Below, piece by piece: positions 1-38,500 of a DNA stretch of 64,000 bases. Each line of letters opens with the position of its first letter. Positions within the stretch are counted from its first letter, which is position 1. The stretch spans positions 53,548,494 to 53,612,493 of the forward strand of contig NC_053045.1 of the NCBI RefSeq assembly GCF_003473485.1, written 5' to 3'. The translations under genes and the position numbers were made by a program. The DNA is from Medicago truncatula. Taxonomy: Eukaryota; Streptophyta; Magnoliopsida; Fabales; Fabaceae. The notes below the pieces were generated by a model. The model was not told the origin of the DNA. It saw only the letters and a list, made by a program, of their open reading frames with translations, and made no database searches.

Positions 1-400
1 ATGACCAAGATTTCTCTAATTCAAGAAAGAAAGAAAAAAAATCAGAATAGAGCAGAAAGGCTTCTGTTTAATTGGAAGACATGGAACACAACATAGCAAA
101 ATATAGATATAACCAACGTTATCCTGGCTACCTCAAATGTGTGAATTTAAAAAAGCACAGAATAATAAACAAGAAAATGGAAATATGAACAAATCAAGAT
201 AGCAGACCTTTTAATTTCATCTAAATTAACCACACTTAGTAAAGCAAAAAAATTGGAAGTAAAACAAGGGTTTTCAAGTTAACAAAACTGCTAAAACAAA
301 AACAGTATATCAGAACAGGTACAGCTACATACATATCTCAGTAGTCATGGCACAATACAGGAACAGAACAGGTTATTATATTATATTCATAAAAACATAC

Positions 401-2215
401 ATTTGGTTTTCTTCCTCTGGTTGAAAGTTTTGATCTGGGTTTTGTGTTCTTTGAAGTTCCTTTTTTATCAACAGGTTGATTTGAAATCTTCTTCTTATCT
501 CTACCCACCTGCTCATTCTCTTTACCGGCATTATCCTCATTTTCCTCAAAATATTGAGAACTAGACTCTTGTGCATAAGAATCACCATCTCCAATATTGA
601 TTACATTCTTCTCATATTTGCCATTAGTAGGCACATTAGTTTCATCCCCATTTTTCCCACCCTTCTCTTTCTTTGCTCTACGTTTCTTTTTTGCAGGCTT
701 TCGGTTGTTATATTCCATAGCACCAACCCCATCATTCTCATTCTCACTCTCAATTTGAGTCGGAGTTTCAGAAACCTCGGGCTTGTGTGTTGAAGCACTG
801 GGTTTTCTGCTCTTACGTCCAGCCAGCATTGCTTCAAGAACCCCAATTTCATCATCATCAACATCGTCATCGTTGCCATCATTCTCATCAAAATCAAACC
901 GGCCCTTGTGCCCAGATACCATTGTTTCAAGAACATCATTCTCATCATCATCGTCGTCATTAACAACAAAATCAACTGACGCACCAGTCTCCTCCCCATC
1001 TTTTGCATGCTCAGCATCAAAAAATTCATCATCGTCACCATCATCATTCAGCTCAACCCCATTTGCACTCTCCTCATCTGCAACATTAAGACTGTCTCGA
1101 ATCCTCTCCTCCAAATCATCAACCCTAACTCCATCCTCCTCACTTTCCAATCTCTCCTCATCAACTCCTTCTCTTTCACTTTCACCTTCCTCATCCACCT
1201 CAGCTTCTAACTCCTCTTCATCATCAAGTGAATCCTTGAACTCGGCAACTTTCTCCTTATGCTTCTTACTCTGCTCATGATTCTTCCATTGCTTCTCACT
1301 CTTAAACTTCTTCCCACACAACACACAATAAAACTCCTTCTCATCTTTCTTCTCAGACTCATCATCCTCGTACAAATCCTCAACCTCTTCCTCATCAACC
1401 TTAGCCCAATCAGGCTCCTCATAAGCCATAGCCCTCTCCTTCCTCTCCATCTCCAACTTCCTTTTCCTCTCCTTCTCCTCCTCTTTCTTCTTCTCCATCT
1501 CCAAATTCTTCTTCACCTTCATATCAATCACTCTCTTATCCCTCTTCTTCACAAAATCAGCCAACTTCCTCACAGTATCATTATACTCCCTCTTCGCCTT
1601 CCTCCTCACCTTATTATTCTCTTCCTCCATCAACCTCCGTGACTTCCTATTCGGACCCGCCATAGCATCATACTCATCCGCCCAACAAAAATCCATAACA
1701 GTCGAAAATCCCAACCAATAACTATAAAAGGCCGTAACCTGCGCATAAGGACTATCCAAGTTCCCCATAAGAGGAGCTTGTCTAACAGAATCAATCCCTA
1801 AACCTAATTTCTTAGCAAAATTAATCTCATTCGCCTGAATTTTATCAAACACATCAGAATAAACCTTATAGAAACCCTTACCGGAATCCGAAAACCCAGA
1901 ATAAACGGTATTCGAGAAAAACGAAAACAGGTCAGGGACAACGGAATTAGACTTGGAATTTGGATCGGAGAAGAGGATTTGAGAACGGTGGGAATCGTAC
2001 CAAGCTCGTTCCTTTGGATCGGAGAGAACCTCATAAGCGTGTTGTAGCTCCTGAAATTGAGCGGTGGCTTCGGATTGAGAGAGGCCTGATTTGACGAGCT
2101 TGTCGGGGTGGCGTTGGAGGGCGAGTTTCCGGTAAGCTGATCGGAGTTCTTCTGGTGAGCATTCGCGAGGTAGACCGAGAACTTCGTAGTGGCATCGCTT
2201 CGCCGTCGATGCCAT
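401..2215 (-). CDS. JJJ1/DNAJC21-type J-domain zinc-finger protein (3' end incomplete)
   Basis: The predicted product is a J-domain co-chaperone of the yeast Jjj1/human DNAJC21 type, which acts with Hsp70 in cytosolic maturation of the 60S ribosomal subunit. Seen: an ATG at 2215 opens a J domain (about residues 8-75, HPD at 36-38). A charged region with a long K/E helix follows (about 185-265), then a U1-type C2H2 finger (C297, C300, H313, H319) and a long Asp/Glu-rich tail. The open frame runs on to 338, but a good donor (AAT|GTATGT) sits at 401/400 and the last 20 codons past it look like intron. I therefore end the exon at 401 (605 codons, phase 0). The upstream extension of the frame uses only TTG, so ATG 2215 is chosen. 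Family members carry a second C2H2 finger at the C-terminus, which is absent here and should lie in an exon to the left. A telo-box sits just upstream of the ATG. Confidence 0.88.
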
Positions 2216-2233
2216 TGTTGCTTCGATGAACAA

Positions 2234-4987: not shown

Positions 4988-7900
4988 TTAGTAATTTTCC
5001 TTGTGGAAAACAAATCTAGTTGTGGTTTTGGTGGAAAATTTGGTGCACAAATTCTTCAACTCTGTTGCTAAGTTAGATGGTCCACAATAAAAAACTCCTG
5101 TAGTAGGAAATCCACATAGTTAGAACTTAAAAGATAATATAGAATGATGTCTATTTCAATCATTAACTTAAATAATATAGAATGATGACAAAGTATGCTA
5201 AGTTAATGACATGTATAATTTAGCATACTTTTTTAAATATACATAATGATATTTTTCTCACCAATCTTAGCTTCCACATGCTTGCGAGCCAATCTGGAAA
5301 ATATGTTGGACCAGTTTGGTCGAGCAAAATGTGTGTGAATCTGAAAATTCAGAGACAAAATCACTATATTTTTTCATAATTTGTCTGTACATATAATGGC
5401 CAAAGTTAAGGATAAGATGCACTTACAGGAGTCCTAGAAACTATGTCAGTGCCATTCTTAGCATGATGTAAAGCTTGAATGACACTTAGCAAAGCCGAAC
5501 GAACATCTCCCTCAGGATATACACTAGTCAGGAAATTATGCATCTCCACAACCGACTTAAACATTCAAGAAAATTATAATGGTCAGAAAATGATTGAAGA
5601 TTTTAATTATGCATCTTTATGATAAATTGCATCAGGAATACATACCTGCTGTTTTGTTGAATTTGCTATTTCCTTCATTACATCTCTAAACCAATCAAAG
5701 GAGTTTTGTTCTCTTGTAACCCAATATAAATATGCTTTTGATGGTGAACCTTTTGTTGAGCTGCATTCTCTGAGACCACTCTATTTTCAAATGCCCAAAT
5801 GTGTCATTTATTTCATGGAACAGAAGTGGAGCAATTGAATTTTAGTGAATGCAGTAAATATCACACACAAGAAGAAAAAAATATTATTAGCAAAACAAAA
5901 GAAGCTTACATGATTACTTTGTTGTGATGTCTGGACACCATTAGCAACATCTTTGAGGATGCTAATGAAAGGTGTAGCTCCTATGCCAAGACCAATAAGT
6001 ACTAGAATGTCATACTTTACATGGTCTTGAGAAGCAGAACCATAAGGGCCATCTATGTACAGTTTTGGACACCCTTGCAACCTGGACAACACTGCCTGCA
6101 GAATATTGCAGTAACAATTTTGAGACTGGAAAATTTTGAGAAACCTATAATTCTGCATTTTTTTTAAAATGTAAATTTCTTACCTCTTGGAATAGAGCAT
6201 ATATTTGGTAGCTCCAGTCACCAAGAGTTCTAATGTGCACACTCAGGTACTCGTCTTGTGGTCCTGATGTCAGGGAAAATGGATGCCTGAAAATTTAGGC
6301 AAAATAGATTCAAAAATTGAACATCAATCTTGATTAACTAGTTTCAAACTGCAAGAATGAATTGGATTAATATTAAATGAAAAGGTTGAACTAATACCAT
6401 TGAAAGGGTGAAATTTGGGGGCACTGAATGAATATATACATGCCACTTCTGTACTTAAAACCGTCTGGTTTTTGCATTTTGAGGTACAGAACTTTTCCTG
6501 GATAGAGACTTGCCTGCATGTAAAATCAAAGGAGAAGAACATACTAGTTAATATGAAAAAGAAACTCAAACCAGCAGCTTTTATGAATATTTTGAACATA
6601 AAAAAGTTGATAAAAATACCTTCATAACATCAACTTCATAAGATCCTGATCTAATGGCTCGAAAGATCCTCTCTCCAGCATACAATAAAACTGGAAAAGC
6701 AATGTACATCCATGTCTGCATGTAGTAAGATAAATATATAGGAAATGAAAATCTACACAAAAATTAGTGCTACTTTCAAGAGTTTTAGTAACATTTACTG
6801 CTGTCTTAGGCATGTTAAGTGGTAGACAGTAACAATCATGCAGTAGACTAGTGACGAGAAATTGAGAACTTTAATTAATTTAGTAAACATGATTCAACAA
6901 ATGAAAAATGTTGCATATACTTCAATATTCATTTGCTAAATTGGATGTCTTATAAAACACTAAGCTTGAATAATTCAGTTCTTTTAACCATGTTATAGGT
7001 GTAAATTATCACCTACTTCGTGGATGACTAATTTCTATCATAGAGTCTAACCGTATTTCGTAGAGTCTAGTCTCCCTTTCAACGTAATGTTAGTAATACA
7101 AACATTAGATTTTTATTTAGATCAAGCAAAGTGGCAAGGATGGAAAATGGAAAAAAGACAGAGAAGCTTACCGTTTTCTCGATCCACTTGTCGGCTAGGA
7201 ACAAGAACATGGAGTGAACAATGAGCAATACGTAGACAATGACAAACAAGTGGTGAGAATACCAAAAGGTGTTGTATCCGGTGACCCTTCTGATGGACAA
7301 GGGCAACACAGGTGAACGACGCCTTGGCCACTTTGTTGCAAGTGAAAATGCAATGGCCATTATCAGCACCATGCCAATCCCACTTGCAACTTCTGTTGTG
7401 GCCAAAATTTCCATGTAGGTAGGTTGGTGGTAGCCAAATCCTGCGGCTATTGTTTGTCGAAAAATTGATTTGTCTGAATCACTGATTCTTGGGAAATCAC
7501 ATGTAAGGTGTGTCCCTCCATGCAATATCACACCCACCACTATTCCTCCAGCAATAAGCTGCATATATATATCCCAGAAGCAAAATATCATGTACTTATG
7601 TTATTTTTCAAATGGATTTCAATTTCAATGTCACAATATATGGGTTTTGAGTTTCGACATATCTCACCAAAAATAATTGTTGTTTGTATATAACAGGAGA
7701 GGTTTTCACAACTCTTTTGTTGTACTTAAAAACGAAAATAGACTCGAAAGTTAATGTGTTGTACTACTAAATCTTACCAATATTTTATGTAGACGTTAAC
7801 ATAGTTTTTTAATAATAAAAATTAAGTGATGTTTAATATATAGATCTTGATTTGGTAAACATCTTAATTTGCAGCTTATAGCATAAATGTTTATCATGAT

Positions 7901-14957: not shown

Positions 14958-17201
14958 TCAGGCCCTTTTAGCAAAATCATCAGTATCATCATTGCCATTG
15001 ATCGAGTCCTCAACATCATCACCATCGCTAAAATTTCCATGGATCGAGTCTCCGTCACCTCCCAAGTCCTCATTTACATTACCACAGTCTTTGCTATCAA
15101 ATTGGGCACGGCCGCCATATTCCATCCCCCCACTTCCATCATATCCACCAGCAGAGCCAATGCCGCTACCTGCATAGTCAATAAAGTAATCACGAAAACC
15201 ACCGTTAGCATCATAATAATTCTTAGGGATACGAAAAGAGAAATGCTAACACTTTCTTTCTAAAACTCTCTTAACACTTACTCTCTCTTTGGATGAAATT
15301 ATTGTGGATCCCACATAAAGTGGTGGGATTCATATGGATTTTATCCAATGAGAGAGCGAGTGCTAGAGAGAGTGTTGCTAGCACTCCTTAGTCATCATAT
15401 GAAAATACTTGGAGCTTTCCGTATTTCCTGCATTCATTATTTTTACATTTTCAAAGCCCTCACTTATACATCTTAGTCAAACAAGAGTAAGGGTCCCTCA
15501 CTTATATAGCCCTTACCAGCATTGCTAGTTCCGAAACTATTAGGAGCAGAATAGTTACTACCCCCATAATTGGCACCTGGTCCAGAGCTACCTCCACCAT
15601 AGCCACCACCCCCATAACCTCCATCTACATTTCCACCGCCACTTGAAGCACCACCGTATGGAGAGCCACCATAAGCACCTGCATACCCAGCTCCACCACC
15701 GTATGACGCATTACCATAAGAACCGCCGCCGCCGCCATATACACGAGGCCTTTCATTAGCGTAATTTACCCTAACCCGACGACCATGAAGATCCTGAAAG
15801 TTCAAAACAGATAAAGAAACACTAGATTAAGAGGGATAACATAGTGCCAGTCATTAAATTTGCAAAATGACAAAAAAGGGTTAATAGATGAATCAATTGA
15901 TAAAACTACACAACGATAAACAAAGCCAAGAAAAAAATACATTTGCGCACATCACCTACTATAAGTTAAAAATGTATCCACGTACAACAGAAGTAGAATT
16001 ATCCTACTTAAAACTTGCTATCATGTGAAGGAAAACTAAGAAAGCTCAGAGAAAGGTTGCCAGTTTCTTTGGGTTTTCTAGCAATCGACTAAATATCTGT
16101 CTTTAGTTTGAAAAAATTAAGTAAAGCTACAATGTTATTACTTTCATCAAGACCCGTACTCTGACACGTAAAATAAAAAAAATAAATTATAAGCAACGTA
16201 AAATTAAATGATTCCAGAATACAACAGTGATAGCCAATGAGACAGTCCAAACAGACATCGACCAGCATCTAGATATGCCAAAATAAGGCTAATAAGTATG
16301 TATAGCATGGTTTCAAATTGTGCTTGCGATCGGGATGCAGTTGCCGCCACTGCAATTGCAGGTATTGCGGTTGTTGTGGTGTGACTTATCTTTAAAATCT
16401 CAAATCTCATATTTTCCCTCGGATATCTCACCTCTCGCTCTTCACCAACATAATGTAATATGAAGATTAGAAAATCATTTTCATGAGCACTATAAAGCCC
16501 CTCGCAGCCAGATGCAGGCAACAATGTGATGGGGACTTAATAGTAATTAGCAAAACTACTACAATTGTGGTGTTATTATGCAATTCAGATGCATTGCATG
16601 ATGAAGTCCGCAATTTGAAACCATGATCTACACATAATAAATAACCGAAGGAATTTTAAAAGGATTCTATAAATTGGTCCACATTACTTGTTAAGGACGA
16701 AGTACTAAAGAACAACGTTAATTCAAACTATCAACAGGTTAAAAGAAAAACTGCATATACAGCCCTCATATTCCCACAAATCAAACGGCTTAAATATTTA
16801 GCTTCAGCAAACGGACGTGATCAGTTGAAATGGCCGGCACAATATTGCTATGAAAGCATAATTCTTATAATAACAACTCTATATTACCTGACCATCCAAG
16901 GCCTGAATGGCACTAGATGCTTCCTCAACTGAATTGAATGTGATAAAGCCAAATCCTCTAGATCTACCAGTTTCACGATCCATAATTATCCTTGCTACAA
17001 AGAGCATGATATTAAAGAGATCATTACCAAATAAAAAACAATTGCAATAATTAGACAAAAAACTCATTATACATGACAAAAAGAAAGCATTGAGTCAAAC
17101 TATATTTACCGTCAAGAACTTCACCATATCTTGAAAAAGCTTCCCTCAAACTATTTTCATCAGTTGAATATGAAACACCTGCAACGGACAGATGTAAAAT
17201 A

Positions 17202-17243
<42 letters not shown>

Positions 17244-17719
17244 ATTTTGATGTTTTAGTTATGTCTGTGGGTAAGCTTTTTTATAAAACCATTTTGATAC
17301 AAATAATTTAGAGAGTATATTTTTAGAGATTTCTAACCAAAGTATGCTATATTGTGTTTGTTAATTTGTTTAAAATTATATGTAGAGATTTTGTATTTCT
17401 CCCTCCAGTTGAAGATGATTTTCTTCAAAAGCTAATCCAATTAGCTTTTCATTTTCAGCATAAAAATCACTTTTTAAAAAAAATAGTTTTTAAACACAAA
17501 CATAACTAAGACATAAAAAATGATATTTTAAAAATCTGAAACAAGGAATCAAACATAATAAGGTCTTTCAAACGCACCCCCTATAAACAGCTTTGTGGTT
17601 GGAGCAGAACACATGCATCTTATAGCCTGGAGAGCAGATGGGGCCGGACGCAATTCCAAAACAATCTTCCGGTTTACCCCTTGTCGTAGAATATTCCCAA
17701 GTTTACCAAAGAAAGCCAT
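14958..17719 (-). CDS. Glycine-rich RNA-binding protein, mitochondrial type (GR-RBP3-like), last exon interrupted
   Basis: Exons 17719-17578, 17178-17110, 16994-16888 and 15793-15517 join cleanly. They give a mitochondrial-type presequence (start [13 protein letters not shown], residues 1-40), one RRM with RNP2 (LFIGG) and RNP1 (GFGFITF), and a Gly/Tyr/Ser-rich tail. The last exon ends at TGA 14958-14960 after an acidic stretch and the terminal AKRA. This is the domain order of Arabidopsis GR-RBP3 (AT5G61030), an organellar RNA-binding/RNA-editing-associated family. Exon 4 ends in phase 1. The natural next acceptor at 15428/15427 opens an in-frame exon, but a MITE (about 15227-15389) interrupts it and brings a TAG. 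The next in-frame acceptor, TGCAG|GTAGC at 15170/15169, would give a 268-aa protein that skips the damaged part. Intron retention would end it at a stop shortly after 15517. A 5' leader intron (18170-17736) is also supported. Confidence 0.85.
15227..15389. mobile_element. MITE inserted in the last exon of the GR-RBP gene
   Basis: A ~160-bp element with related inverted ends (GAGAAATGCTAACACTTTC and, reverse complement of the other side, GAGTGCTAGCAACACTCTC) and CTCTCTTTGG / CCAATGAGAGAG inside. The flanks on the gene strand are ATGACTAAG and ATCCCTAAG, 7 of 9 identical, consistent with a decayed 9-bp duplication of the Mutator type. The exact left boundary is uncertain by some bases. Confidence 0.7.
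17204..17239. repeat. (TA)n microsatellite in GR-RBP intron 1
   Basis: An uninterrupted TA dinucleotide run of about 36 bases, ending roughly 25 bases upstream of the exon-2 acceptor on the gene strand. Likely length-polymorphic. Confidence 0.9.
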
Positions 17720-19012: not shown

Positions 19013-20389
19013 ATGGCAGAAACCCGAAGAACTTCATCATCTTCAACAACCGTTCTCGATAGTTTAGGCGAAGAAATCGTTAGAATTATCACTCCTGTTT
19101 CAATCTGCATGTTCCTCGTTGTAATCCTAGTCTCAATTCTCAACACAAACGATTCTCCAACAATCTCCACCATAGCCAACATAGCATACGACGAAACAAC
19201 ATCAGATTCTTCCTGGGACAAATTCCTCGGCGCACTTTTAAACTCTCTCTCCTTCGTTGTTGTCGTAACTTTCGCCACTTTCTTCTTAGTCCTTCTTTTC
19301 TATTTCCGATGTATCACGTTCTTAAAACTCTACATGGCTTTTTCTTCCTTTGTTGTATTAGGTTTTCTTGGAGGTGAAATTTCGATTTTTTTGATTCAAC
19401 ATTTTAGTGTTCCGGTTGATTGTATAACGTTTTTGGTTGTTTTGTGTAATTTTGCTGTTGTTGGTGTTTGTGCTGTTTTTATGTCTAAAATGGCTATTTT
19501 TGTTACACAAGGGTATTTGGTGGTTATTGGAATATTGGTTGCGTATTGGTTTACTATGTTGCCTGAATGGACAACATGGGCTATGCTTGTTGCTATGGCT
19601 TTGTATGATCTTGCTGCGGTTTTGTTGCCTGTTGGTCCTTTGAGGCTTTTAGTTGAACTTGCTATGTCGAGGGATGAAGAAATTCCGGCTTTGGTTTATG
19701 AGGCTAGGCCGGTGAGTAATGATTGTATGGATCCTAGGATTATCGAGGCTCGGAGGAGGTTATGGAGAGAGAGAAGGATTGAGAGTGCAATTCTGATAAC
19801 TGAGAGTGGAAATTCAGTGTTGGGTAGTGGTGGACTTAATGTTGAACAATCATCACATTCCAATTCAGACGCGAATACTGTTCTAAGTACAAATTTAAAT
19901 GAGAATTTGACTCCTGAAAATGGTTCAAATTTGAATTCTAGTAGCACTTATGGCACACGTAATTTGGTTAGAGCCGAAGAGGGGCGAGCGAGGGTTCAAG
20001 AAATTGATTCAGATCTTGCCACACCCTTGATTGATCATGGTGTGAACGTACGGGTTCCTAGAGGAGAAGATGCCACGTCAAATGAGAATTTGATGTTGGA
20101 AGGAATTGGGCTGGCTTCGTCCGGTGCAATCAAGTTGGGGCTGGGCGATTTTATCTTCTATAGTGTTTTGGTTGGCAGAGCTGCAATGTATGATTTTATG
20201 ACAGTGTATGCATGTTATCTTGCAATTATTGCTGGTCTTGGCGTAACTTTGATGCTTTTGGCTTTATATCAGAAAGCGTTGCCTGCTCTACCTGTGTCAG
20301 TAGCACTCGGTGTGTTATTTTATTTCTTGACCAGATTGTTACTTGAAGTATTTGTGGTACAATGTTCCTTGAATCTCTTGATGTTCTAA
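19013..20389 (+). CDS. Presenilin-like aspartic intramembrane protease
   Basis: A single uninterrupted 458-codon frame encoding the catalytic subunit type of gamma-secretase (GxGD protease). Seen: hydrophobic segments at about 23-44, 78-98, 103-128, 134-155, 160-180 and 186-208. The TM6 catalytic Asp lies in ALYDLAAV (D199). A long hydrophilic, Asn/Ser-rich loop (about 232-372) follows. The second catalytic Asp is in GLGDF (D379), and the PALP motif is at 424-427 before the last helix. Plant presenilins are intronless, as here. They reside in endomembranes; beyond protease activity their plant roles are poorly defined. The ATG at 19013 is the first in frame and sits in a leader with ordinary context. 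Confidence 0.96.
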   Translation: MAETRRTSSSSTTVLDSLGEEIVRIITPVSICMFLVVILVSILNTNDSPTISTIANIAYDETTSDSSWDKFLGALLNSLSFVVVVTFATFFLVLLFYFRCITFLKLYMAFSSFVVLGFLGGEISIFLIQHFSVPVDCITFLVVLCNFAVVGVCAVFMSKMAIFVTQGYLVVIGILVAYWFTMLPEWTTWAMLVAMALYDLAAVLLPVGPLRLLVELAMSRDEEIPALVYEARPVSNDCMDPRIIEARRRLWRERRIESAILITESGNSVLGSGGLNVEQSSHSNSDANTVLSTNLNENLTPENGSNLNSSSTYGTRNLVRAEEGRARVQEIDSDLATPLIDHGVNVRVPRGEDATSNENLMLEGIGLASSGAIKLGLGDFIFYSVLVGRAAMYDFMTVYACYLAIIAGLGVTLMLLALYQKALPALPVSVALGVLFYFLTRLLLEVFVVQCSLNLLMF

Positions 20390-31413: not shown

Positions 31414-32956
31414 ATGGAAGTTAAAGGTGACAACAAAGTCAATATTGATTTACGAACTGGTCATGCCACAAATGCTTATCAACCACCACCTCCGTTAACA
31501 GAACAAGAGCTTGGGAGAGCATCTAACAATCCTTTGGAAGCTCATTCTCATATACCAGACATCAACCAAGCCCCCGTGACATCATTGTCGTCATCGTTCC
31601 AAAATCCATTCATAGGACCAAGTGAGGCAACCAACGACACTGTTGAGGATGACACAAACATTGGTAGTTCAAATACACATATTTATAATTCTCCGAACGA
31701 AATACATTCTTCAACTAATGTTATTTCAAATCTCAATTCACCAACATCCACATATGAATTGTCGCAAGAAAGTTCATTCAATGAGAAAACAAATACAAAT
31801 AACAGTGACTCCGATGATGTAGTTAAATCATGGCAAACCCAGCCATCTCCATGTGATATTGTATCAACAAATGTTGAATCACATCACCCCTTTAAAGAAA
31901 TTGAGAAAGGACAACAGGGAGTGGATGATACTATCCATACAGGGACATCATCTTTTCCAACTTTAGAATCATTAAACCAAGAACAAACGTGCGCTTCTAT
32001 AAATGTCACAAGTAATGCAAATCAAGATCTGGGACTGGCTTCCCGTATGGTTGGGGAGTCCAATAATAACGAAGTTGCAACTAAATCCGAGCCCAATCAT
32101 CAACATTCAGATGTAGCAGAACACTCCACGCCAACTTCGTCTAATCAAAACATAGAACACCACAAAATTAAAGGACCAGAGATACAAAACCCGCCGATAC
32201 AATTGATGGAGCGTCCAAGTGAAAATGTGACTAATGCCCAATATGTCTTTCCATCTCATGTATTTGCTAGAAACAATACAAATGCCCCAGTAGAATGGAG
32301 CACTGCCTCTAACGAATCACTCTTCAGCATTTATATGGGAAATACAAGTTTCTCAAGTGAACTAGCTTGCTTCAAATCTTCTGATTTAGATAAGTCTGGT
32401 GATGTATGTATGTCCGATCAGTATATTGCTTCGCCAAATCATCAACCTCCAGTACCTGTGAATAAATTCAACGCTATTAGCAAGGGAACTGCCGAACTTC
32501 ACGAAGAAGGTTTGAAGGTAACTGAAGCAAAAGCTGCTGAGACAATGAGAGAGGTCATAATGGAGAGTAGTCAAACTACAAAGTATGTTGTTAAAAAGGA
32601 AGATAAAAAATCTAATTCTCGACATCAGTCACATGGTAGCACAGGATCCTACGCTTTTAAAACGTAAGCTTCAATCACTTACCACCTTTTTGTATGTATT
32701 ACAATTGCATGATATGCTTAGTTGAGTTGCCATTGGGCAAACTATTTAATTTTTTTTTTTGTGTTCATTATTTTGAAGATCGAAAGATGGAGATAAAAGT
32801 GTCTCATCCAAGGGTGTTGGAGAGAATAACACACCAAATATGAAATCAGAGCAAAATGAAAAAACAGAAGAAGTTGATCAGACACAAAAGTCAAACACAG
32901 ACGCACCTCCAAATAGATGGCTAAGCTGCTTTTCGTGTTGTACATTTTGTCACTAG
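31414..32956 (+). CDS. Unrecognised low-complexity protein with Cys-rich tail (two exons)
   Basis: Exons 31414-32663 and 32779-32956 join in phase 2 (AC|GTAAGC, TTTTGAAG|A) to give 475 aa. I do not recognise the family. The protein is hydrophilic and rich in Ser, Asn, Thr and Gln, without a signal peptide or membrane segment. It opens with MEVKGDNKVNIDLRTGHATN and PPPPL, has a charged Lys/Glu stretch near the exon junction, and ends NRWLSCFSCCTFCH. Five cysteines in the last 11 residues could be a palmitoylation or metal-binding tail. The conserved splice junction in frame with a sensible second exon argues for a real gene. It is probably largely disordered. An upstream acceptor suggests an untranslated first exon. 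Confidence 0.65.
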
Positions 32957-35574: not shown

Positions 35575-38500
35575 ATGGCGAAATCCGTTTCCCCAAACGC
35601 CATCTCCACCCTGCTCTCAAATCCATCTCCTGATTCTTCATCAGATCTCCCTGACATCGTTGTTCAAGTTCTTGATCTCAAAAGTTCCGGCAACAGATAC
35701 TCGTAATTTTGTTCTTCTTCTTTTCTTTCTCGTTTTTGTTTTTGGTTTCAGATCCGTAACAGTAGAATGTTTATTGATTTTTTTTTATCTTGGATTAGGT
35801 TTTCTGCCAGTGATGGAAAAAAGAAACTAAAAGGGATTATTCCTTCAAATCAGTACTCAGAAGTTCTATCTGGGAAGATTCAGAACCTTGGTTTAATTCG
35901 AATCCTTGATTACACTCTCAACGTTATTCCCAACAAATCCGAGAAGTAAGCCCTAATTTTGATGTTGTGCTATTGTGTTCATAGTGTTCCGATCTATAAT
36001 TTTTTTAAAATTAATTAAATTATTTTGCGATTTGTATTAGGTATCTTATGTTGATCAAGTGTGAACCAGTTTCTCCTGCTCTTGAAACGGAGATCAAGAG
36101 TGAACAATCTGGCATCACCTTGAAGCCGAAGGAAGATGATGTAGTCAAGCGTGAAGGTTCTACTGCTGGGATTGTTTTGAAGCCGAAGCTGGACATGGTT
36201 TCAAAATCTGCTGCTCAGATCTTGCACGAGCAACATGCAAAGTGAGTAGTTTTCTGTAATTCGTTTTTGTTTTCATAAATTTTAGGGTTTCGGTTATATT
36301 TGTTGATTTTGTATACATTTGTTTATTTATTTGTTGGTCTTGTCCTTGTTATTTACTTGTTGTTGGTATTTGTCTTCAGAAATTTTAGAATTTGAGTTTT
36401 TGTTTGTTTTGAAATGTATTTTTGGTGATTATTTATTTATTTAATTAATTCAATGGCGTTTCAGTTCTGCTCCTGCGAGATTGGCCATGACCCGTAGAGT
36501 GCGTCCTCTTGTTTCACTGAATCCTTATATGGGTGGTTGGACAATTAAGGTCAGTGTCACAAGCAAAGGAACTATGCGTACCTATAAGAATGCTAGAGGA
36601 GAAGGTTGTGTATTCAATGTTGAACTGACTGATGAAGATGTAAGGAACAGAATATTTGATTTTTTTTTTTTTTTTTTAATGTTGTTTTAGTTTTTAAGTT
36701 TAGTGGGTAACATGTTCTGTGTTTTTGTTTTGAAATATTTTCAGGGTACTCAGATTCAAGCAACTATGTTTAATGATGCTGCAAGGAAGTTTTATGACAA
36801 ATTTGCTATGGGAAAGGTGTATTACATTTCAAAGGGATCTTTGAAAGTTGCTAACAAAAATTTCAAAACTGTGGTAAACGATTATGAAATGACATTGAAT
36901 GAGAATTCTGAGGTGGAAGAGGTTGCCAATGAAGCTGCTTTTGTTCCAGAGACTAAATTCAATTTTGTCCCAATTGATCAGTTGGGTCCTTATGTGAATA
37001 AGTCTGAGCTTGTTGGTGAGTGTTTGTTAGACATTGTTTGTGTTGCTCTTATTGTTGTCATCTTATTGTTTATTTGTTGTGGATTTCAGATTTAGTTGGA
37101 GTTGTTAAGAATGTGTCTTCAACCATGAGCATCCGTAGAAAGAGCAACAATGAGACTGTTCCAAAGCGTGACATTACTATTGCCGATGAAACGTTAGTGT
37201 TTTCGATTCTCTTTTACAGTGTTAGGCAAGTGTTATTTTATAATGTGTTTTTGATCAATCCCTATGCTTGACATTGCAGCAAGAAGACAGTTGTTGTGTC
37301 TTTGTGGGGTGATCTTGCAACTAACATAGGACAAGAGTTACTTGACATGGCTGATAAATCTCCAGTAGTTGCAATCAAATCCCTCAAGGTTGGGGATTTT
37401 CAAGGTATTGCAATGTGAAAGCTTTGCTTATTATTGTATAACACTGATGTAAAAAAAGGCTCATATATCTCATTGCTGAATGTTTTCTGTGTCAGGTATT
37501 TCTTTGTCAGCTATAAGCAGAAGTTTAGTTCTGGTCAATCCAGAAGTACCTGAAGCTCAGAAGCTCAGATGCTGGTATACCAATGTCTCCTAGGTTATTG
37601 TTCCCTTTTTAAGTTAAGTCTATGATAATCATATTTATATGTTTATTACTTGGGTTGCAGGTATGATTCTGAAGGTAAGGATGCTGCAATGGCTGCTATA
37701 AGCTCTGGTTCAATTTCATCATCTAACAGTGGAAGTAGATCAGTTTACTCTGACCGTGTTCCACTCTCTTACATAACCTCTAACCTCTCCTTGGGGGCTG
37801 AGAAGGTATTCATTGTTAACTACATTTTTTTTGGTCTACCAATGCATCCCATATTTAGTTTATAATTTTAATTTTCTGGCGTTGCTAAGATAGTTTCAAC
37901 TGGCTATTATTTGATATTAATGTTCAATATAACCATTTTTTAATTCTTGTAAATTACAATGGATTGCAATCTTAGACACTTGTTTAATCTATATTATCTT
38001 TTCATACTTTGAGCAGCCTGCATTCTTTAGCATCAGAGGGAATATCAGTTTCATAAAGGCAGACCAGGCAATGTGGTATCGTGCCTGTAAGACTTGTAAC
38101 AAGAAAGTTACTGAAGACATGGATGCTGGGTACTGGTGTGAAAGTTGCCAGAAAAATGATGCAGAGTGCAACTTCAGGTAATGTAACTGGTCCAATTAAC
38201 TGGTAGTTTTGTAGATTTTAGCATAGCAGTATTTGAACCTTTCAGATTGCTTCTCAGATATATTATGGTTGCAAAAGTTTCTGATGCAAGTGGTGAGGCT
38301 TTCGTTTCTACCTTCAATGAGGAAGCTGAGAAGATCATTGGGTGCCCTGCTGAGGAGCTAGACAACCTTAAATCACAGGTAACATATTGGATACCATTAT
38401 TTTAATGTTCGAGAACGAATCATGCATGCCAATTGTCATTTATGTTTTTTTTTTCAGGATGGAGAAGAGAATCCTTATGACATGAAATTGAAGAAAGCTA

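Follow-up and report, generated by a model that had tools for sequence, protein, structure and literature searches.

In a plant gene whose product is probably a mitochondrial glycine-rich RRM protein, intron 4 (15516-15170, minus strand) probably harbours an ordinary non-autonomous foldback DNA transposon (MITE), which would have left all exons undamaged. In the mechanism that we favour, the MITE would have inserted into this intron of a nuclear gene and the spliceosome would join donor 15517 to acceptor 15169, with a CTAAC branch-like site and a U-rich tract, both located between the element and 15169, serving that acceptor. With such splicing the element, transcribed within intron 4, would therefore leave the transcript together with the intron, and the protein of 268 amino acids would remain intact. 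Before the insertion the intron might have measured approximately 180 nt, and the hairpin of the element in the pre-mRNA may bring donor and acceptor closer to each other; a minimum energy of -112.8 kcal/mol was predicted for 366 nt, a value without control. The intronic position is preferred because acceptor 15169 looks native, because the 31 residues encoded by the disputed stretch are poor in glycine and because exons are the least frequent location of MITEs according to a survey (PMC12550479). The weights assigned to this reading and to the two exonic alternatives considered below are a matter of judgement.

Under the preferred reading, the gene consists of five exons on the minus strand (17719-14958) of the window, that is, of the whole stretch of 64,000 nucleotides analysed. 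Exon 1 (17578-17719), with the ATG at 17719 and the donor GGG/GTGCG, encodes the N-terminus including a presumed mitochondrial transit peptide; exon 2 (17110-17178) and exon 3 (16888-16994) encode the RRM, as judged from the translation and the RRM_1 match; and exon 4 (15517-15793) provides the end of the RRM and a glycine-rich tail up to the donor CTG/GTAAGG. Intron 4, of 347 nt and in phase 1, encloses the foldback element and is followed by the last exon (14958-15169), the frame of which specifies a Gly/Asp-rich tail ending with DDFAKRA and a stop codon. A gene for a glycine-rich RNA-binding protein had already been proposed in the initial annotation, and translation of the spliced exons agrees with this assignment, as 17719-17578, 17178-17110, 16994-16888 and 15793-15517 join in frame and residues 44-114 of the spliced protein match Pfam RRM_1 (E 1.5e-22). 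The layout of plant GR-RBPs, a single RRM followed by a glycine-rich tail, was thereby found, with glycine fractions of 0.44 and 0.24 in the two parts of the tail.

One N-terminal RRM, a glycine-rich C-terminal tail and a likely transit peptide are equally features of the plant mitochondrial GR-RBP/RBGA proteins, ORRM3, ORRM4 and ORRM5. Unlike in this group, the best-scoring PDB matches are here general RRM proteins, among them poly(A)-binding protein, nucleolin and hnRNPs (102 sequences at E <=1e-12, the best 60 of 102 being examined). The alignment to PDB chain 9evs_k (mS86) begins at query residue 4, and the mS86-type matches are presumably plant proteins. A transit peptide at the N-terminus, and with it mitochondrial targeting, is likely, and the N-terminus together with the similarity to mS86 suggests that the gene product is a probable mitochondrial glycine-rich RRM protein. 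The searches for relatives covered prokaryotic and viral collections and are uninformative on plant orthologues or plant copies: among prokaryote contigs 177 relatives of the spliced protein were found, the best 80 of which are bacterial by title and matched mainly over the RRM, and among viral contigs none; equally, pattern matches to the 70-amino-acid tail occurred in 16 viral stretches, none of which was confirmed as a relative.

Pfam matches of the neighbouring genes comprise DnaJ, a respiratory burst NADPH oxidase with ferric reductase and presenilin; these neighbours and the introns would fit a plant nuclear region. The presenilin of 458 amino acids (19013-20389, plus strand; Pfam E 6.3e-124) is encoded by a single uninterrupted ORF, and a DnaJ/zuotin-like protein with zinc-finger matches (338-2233, minus strand) equally occupies one ORF. 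The arrangement of a DnaJ gene near a mitochondrial GR-RBP gene is, we assume, similar to Arabidopsis At1g74230-At1g74250, and the DnaJ neighbour leads us to take At1g74230 as a candidate Arabidopsis counterpart. An ORF at 36703-37095 (plus strand) showed sub-threshold matches to an OB-fold (24.3 bits, cut-off 27) and to DUF223 (19.9 bits, cut-off 24.6), domains known from replication protein A-like and Helitron-related proteins.

Read-through of donor 15517 soon meets a stop codon. Among the 27 AGs between 15496 and 15132 only 15169 leads to the stop codon behind AKRA, with a product of 268 amino acids, which upholds the initial proposal that this downstream acceptor keeps the phase. Joining of 15517 to 15255 results in 258 amino acids in a different frame without AKRA, while 15427, as had also been predicted, leads to TKEC and then to a TAG just inside the element (214 amino acids). 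Both 15427 and 15169 possess the sequence TGCAG/G in the same phase. Acceptor 15169 is preceded by a U-rich tract (T 0.56 in 16 nt) and, 36 nt upstream, by CTAAC with the A at 15205, the only CTRAY in the 347-nt interval. Upstream of 15427, the U tract is poor (T 0.31 in 16 nt), no CTRAY is present within the intron, and the best branch-like match is a TTGAC at 50 nt. Against the preferred reading count the TGCAG/G at 15427 itself and the sequence 15516-15428, which shows no enrichment in T (T 0.29, G 0.26). On a home-made splice score, built on plant preferences instead of a trained model and ranked against all 6,896 AGs of the window, real acceptors included, 15169 is placed within the top 0.2% and 15427 at 7.3%, with the three other acceptors of the gene at 3.7%, 2.5% and 0.3%. 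By its features 15169 would be a native plant acceptor, and the function as a rescue site attributed to it initially is less likely. If 15427 were used in the present allele, a protein lacking the acidic AKRA tail would result; some such use is possible, since MITE-associated alternative 5' and 3' splice sites are reported for mulberry in a review (PMC12595863). As a separate observation, a direct repeat of 12 nt (plus-strand sequence CCCTCACTTATA; 15457-15506, start-to-start spacing 38) is located just inside the donor of intron 4 in a G-rich region (0.26), and might be the footprint of an older insertion.

The foldback element (15226-15389, minus strand), as delimited by its inverted self-match and its DNA fold, comprises approximately 160 bp with ends uncertain by about 12 nt. 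A MITE-like element of about this size had been recognized initially, and the foldback is confirmed by the inverted self-match (nhmmer E 2.1e-11; blastn 74.8% over 115 nt) and by the folding of 15400-15210 as single-stranded DNA, which yields -28.3 kcal/mol vs a shuffle mean of -14.0 (z -5.27), with 0 of 200 shuffles as good. Terminal inverted repeats as in MITEs are present, with the outermost bases pairing poorly. Like plant foldback MITEs in introns, the element is about 160 bp long, consists almost entirely of an inverted repeat, has no coding capacity seen and is situated in or beside a gene; we infer that it represents a copy of a non-autonomous foldback DNA transposon, of which this single copy was seen. 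Exact patterns of the element gave 0 matches in viral or prokaryote collections, which are unlikely to contain copies from plants. In the literature, no report of this insertion was found among the matches listed, as judged by title or abstract start, and the matches to the string gtgctagcaac were, by title and abstract start, not about plant transposons.

It is very unlikely, in a judgement separate from that on the exon and intron readings, that the hairpin is no transposon copy but an inverted repeat of local origin or a precursor of small RNAs. Such an origin would be consistent with the occurrence of one copy in the 64-kb window, where otherwise only short weak matches were found, with the lack of a clear target-site duplication and with the weak likeness of the inner hairpin (15289-15348, plus strand) to Rfam MIR5269 (39.6 bits vs a gathering score of 60); however, the length and the imperfect arms are typical of plant foldback MITEs, and several miRNA models give weak matches of a kind that a long hairpin can produce (12 rows at E <=1 in a 241-base stretch), with none at gathering score. 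No Rfam family reached its gathering score anywhere in the 64-kb window, and with this best score below gathering a miRNA identity was set aside as hairpin shape. With respect to the transposon family, the G(N)5GTT motif was used to mine PIF/Harbinger elements, according to a Medicago study (PMC2213677). Unlike in a PIF/Harbinger MITE, the ends of the element (GGAGTGCTAG on the left), as read by eye, do not display G(N)5GTT combined with a 3-bp TAA or TTA duplication: TAA is present inside both CTAAG flanks, and GTT at the required spacing in neither end.

The duplicated flank that had been described initially does not go beyond chance. Three flank repeats compete around the element, namely an exact 5-bp CTAAG pair (15391-15387 and 15226-15222), one copy of which abuts the left inverted repeat and the other of which lies about 11 nt past the right one; the pair TTTTCATATG and TTTTCGTATC, which adjoins the right end, not the left; and a TATGATG pair, the longest exact flank pair in the scan. 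When the element was placed at random 5,000 times within the window, an exact 5-bp repeat occurred by chance in 37.7%, and a 9-bp repeat with <=2 mismatches in 40.7%, of cases, with ends left free by up to 6 and 12 nt, a slop chosen by the analyst. The claim that excision of the element with one flank restores a continuous frame is arithmetically correct for the flank selected initially and holds for some of these choices: the frame from 15427 is open through to AKRA after removal of 165 bp (15386-15222, CTAAG) and likewise of 168 bp (TTTTCATATG), but is broken after removal of 184 bp (TATGATG).

The disputed stretch, 15427-15170 minus the element, consists of the supposed start of a broken exon (15387-15427, minus strand), behind which the TAG follows inside the element, and of a supposed exon part beyond the element (15170-15221, minus strand), which is here considered the 3' end of the intron with the branch-like site and the U-rich tract. 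With 165 bp taken out, the stretch measures exactly 93 nt and is open in the right phase. Among 1,447 AG-preceded stretches from presumed noncoding parts of the window, 205 are open at 93 nt and 25 are both open and at least equal in codon score, a frequency lowered to about a third by the requirement for a multiple of three. On open frame and codon usage together, coding is favoured roughly tenfold (rough likelihood ratio 10.5). An earlier form of this test found an open frame in 11.8% of 20,000 intron-like Markov sequences, 0.5% of these reaching the score of the stretch, and in 80 of 492 real stretches. The codon score of the stretch matches or exceeds 55% of the windows from presenilin and 42% of those from DnaJ, but falls short of 85% of the 34 windows taken from the first four exons of the gene and of all eight (8/8) tail windows. 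The training set of the model, drawn entirely from this window, comprised six coding pieces and seven segments presumed to be noncoding; those noncoding segments outside this gene may contain exons, and the model is weak on the coding pieces 7079-7591 (mean -3.43) and 31414-32667 (mean -0.36), one of which may run into an intron.

The amino acid composition of the 31 disputed residues differs from that of the adjoining tail, with three glycines, one of them the junction codon, vs 49 in 143 residues, and 11 bulky hydrophobics vs 23 in 143 (Fisher P 0.008 and 0.023). Beside the 15517/15169 junction, glycine occurs 11 times in the 31 residues before and 11 times in the 31 residues after, and a scan of the joined tail in 113 windows of 31 residues found none with <=3 glycines and a maximum bulky count of 6. 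The GC content of the stretch (0.33) does not decide between exon and intron, as introns 1-3 show 0.24, 0.25 and 0.34, exon 2 shows 0.35 and the flanking exons 0.52 and 0.48.

These observations bear on two exonic explanations. In the first, two acceptors 93 nt apart would both have been used before the insertion to produce two in-frame isoforms, and the element would have removed the longer one only, with 15169 keeping the short one. This scenario is unlikely: the identical TGCAG/G sites in the same phase, the open 93-nt interval without the element and the rarity of open and coding-like stretches in presumed noncoding sequence are in line with it, but 15427 possesses the poor U tract and the distant TTGAC described above instead of a CTRAY, the stretch is glycine-poor and the explanation depends on a flank choice obtainable by chance. 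Less probable still is the original proposal, in which 15427 was the native acceptor, the last coding exon was hit and a formerly silent 15169 rescues the frame with a shortened tail. Length, open frame and codon score of the 93 nt as well as the TAG just inside the element agree with it; however, a silent coding stretch would have needed, by luck, a branch site and a U tract that outscores the other acceptors of the gene on the home-made score, in addition to the right phase. Equally, the stretch is glycine-poor, and exon insertions are the least frequent class in the survey, which for the species studied in three plant families describes exons, with few exceptions, as the rarest MITE site (PMC12550479). 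An insertion within the last exon is thus the less likely reading, weakened by the glycine-poor composition of the supposed lost exon and kept alive by open frame and codon usage. Only tentatively can it be suggested that the insertion, by hitting a 31-codon exon part, eliminated the longer isoform of two, or the sole one, that a shortened protein is rescued through an in-phase acceptor within the coding sequence left over, and that empty alleles persist in relatives.

If an exon had indeed been broken, the locus would constitute a small natural test of the function of the glycine-rich tail, with ORRM5 sharing the layout. For Arabidopsis ORRM5, a study reports that most editing defects were restored by the RRM on its own, with averages of 77% for one site class and 43% for another, but that the morphological defects were not (PMC5853588). 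If the element is intronic, as preferred here, it would be one among very many intronic MITEs and might serve as a caution for gene predictors, which could pick 15427 and call a truncated protein.
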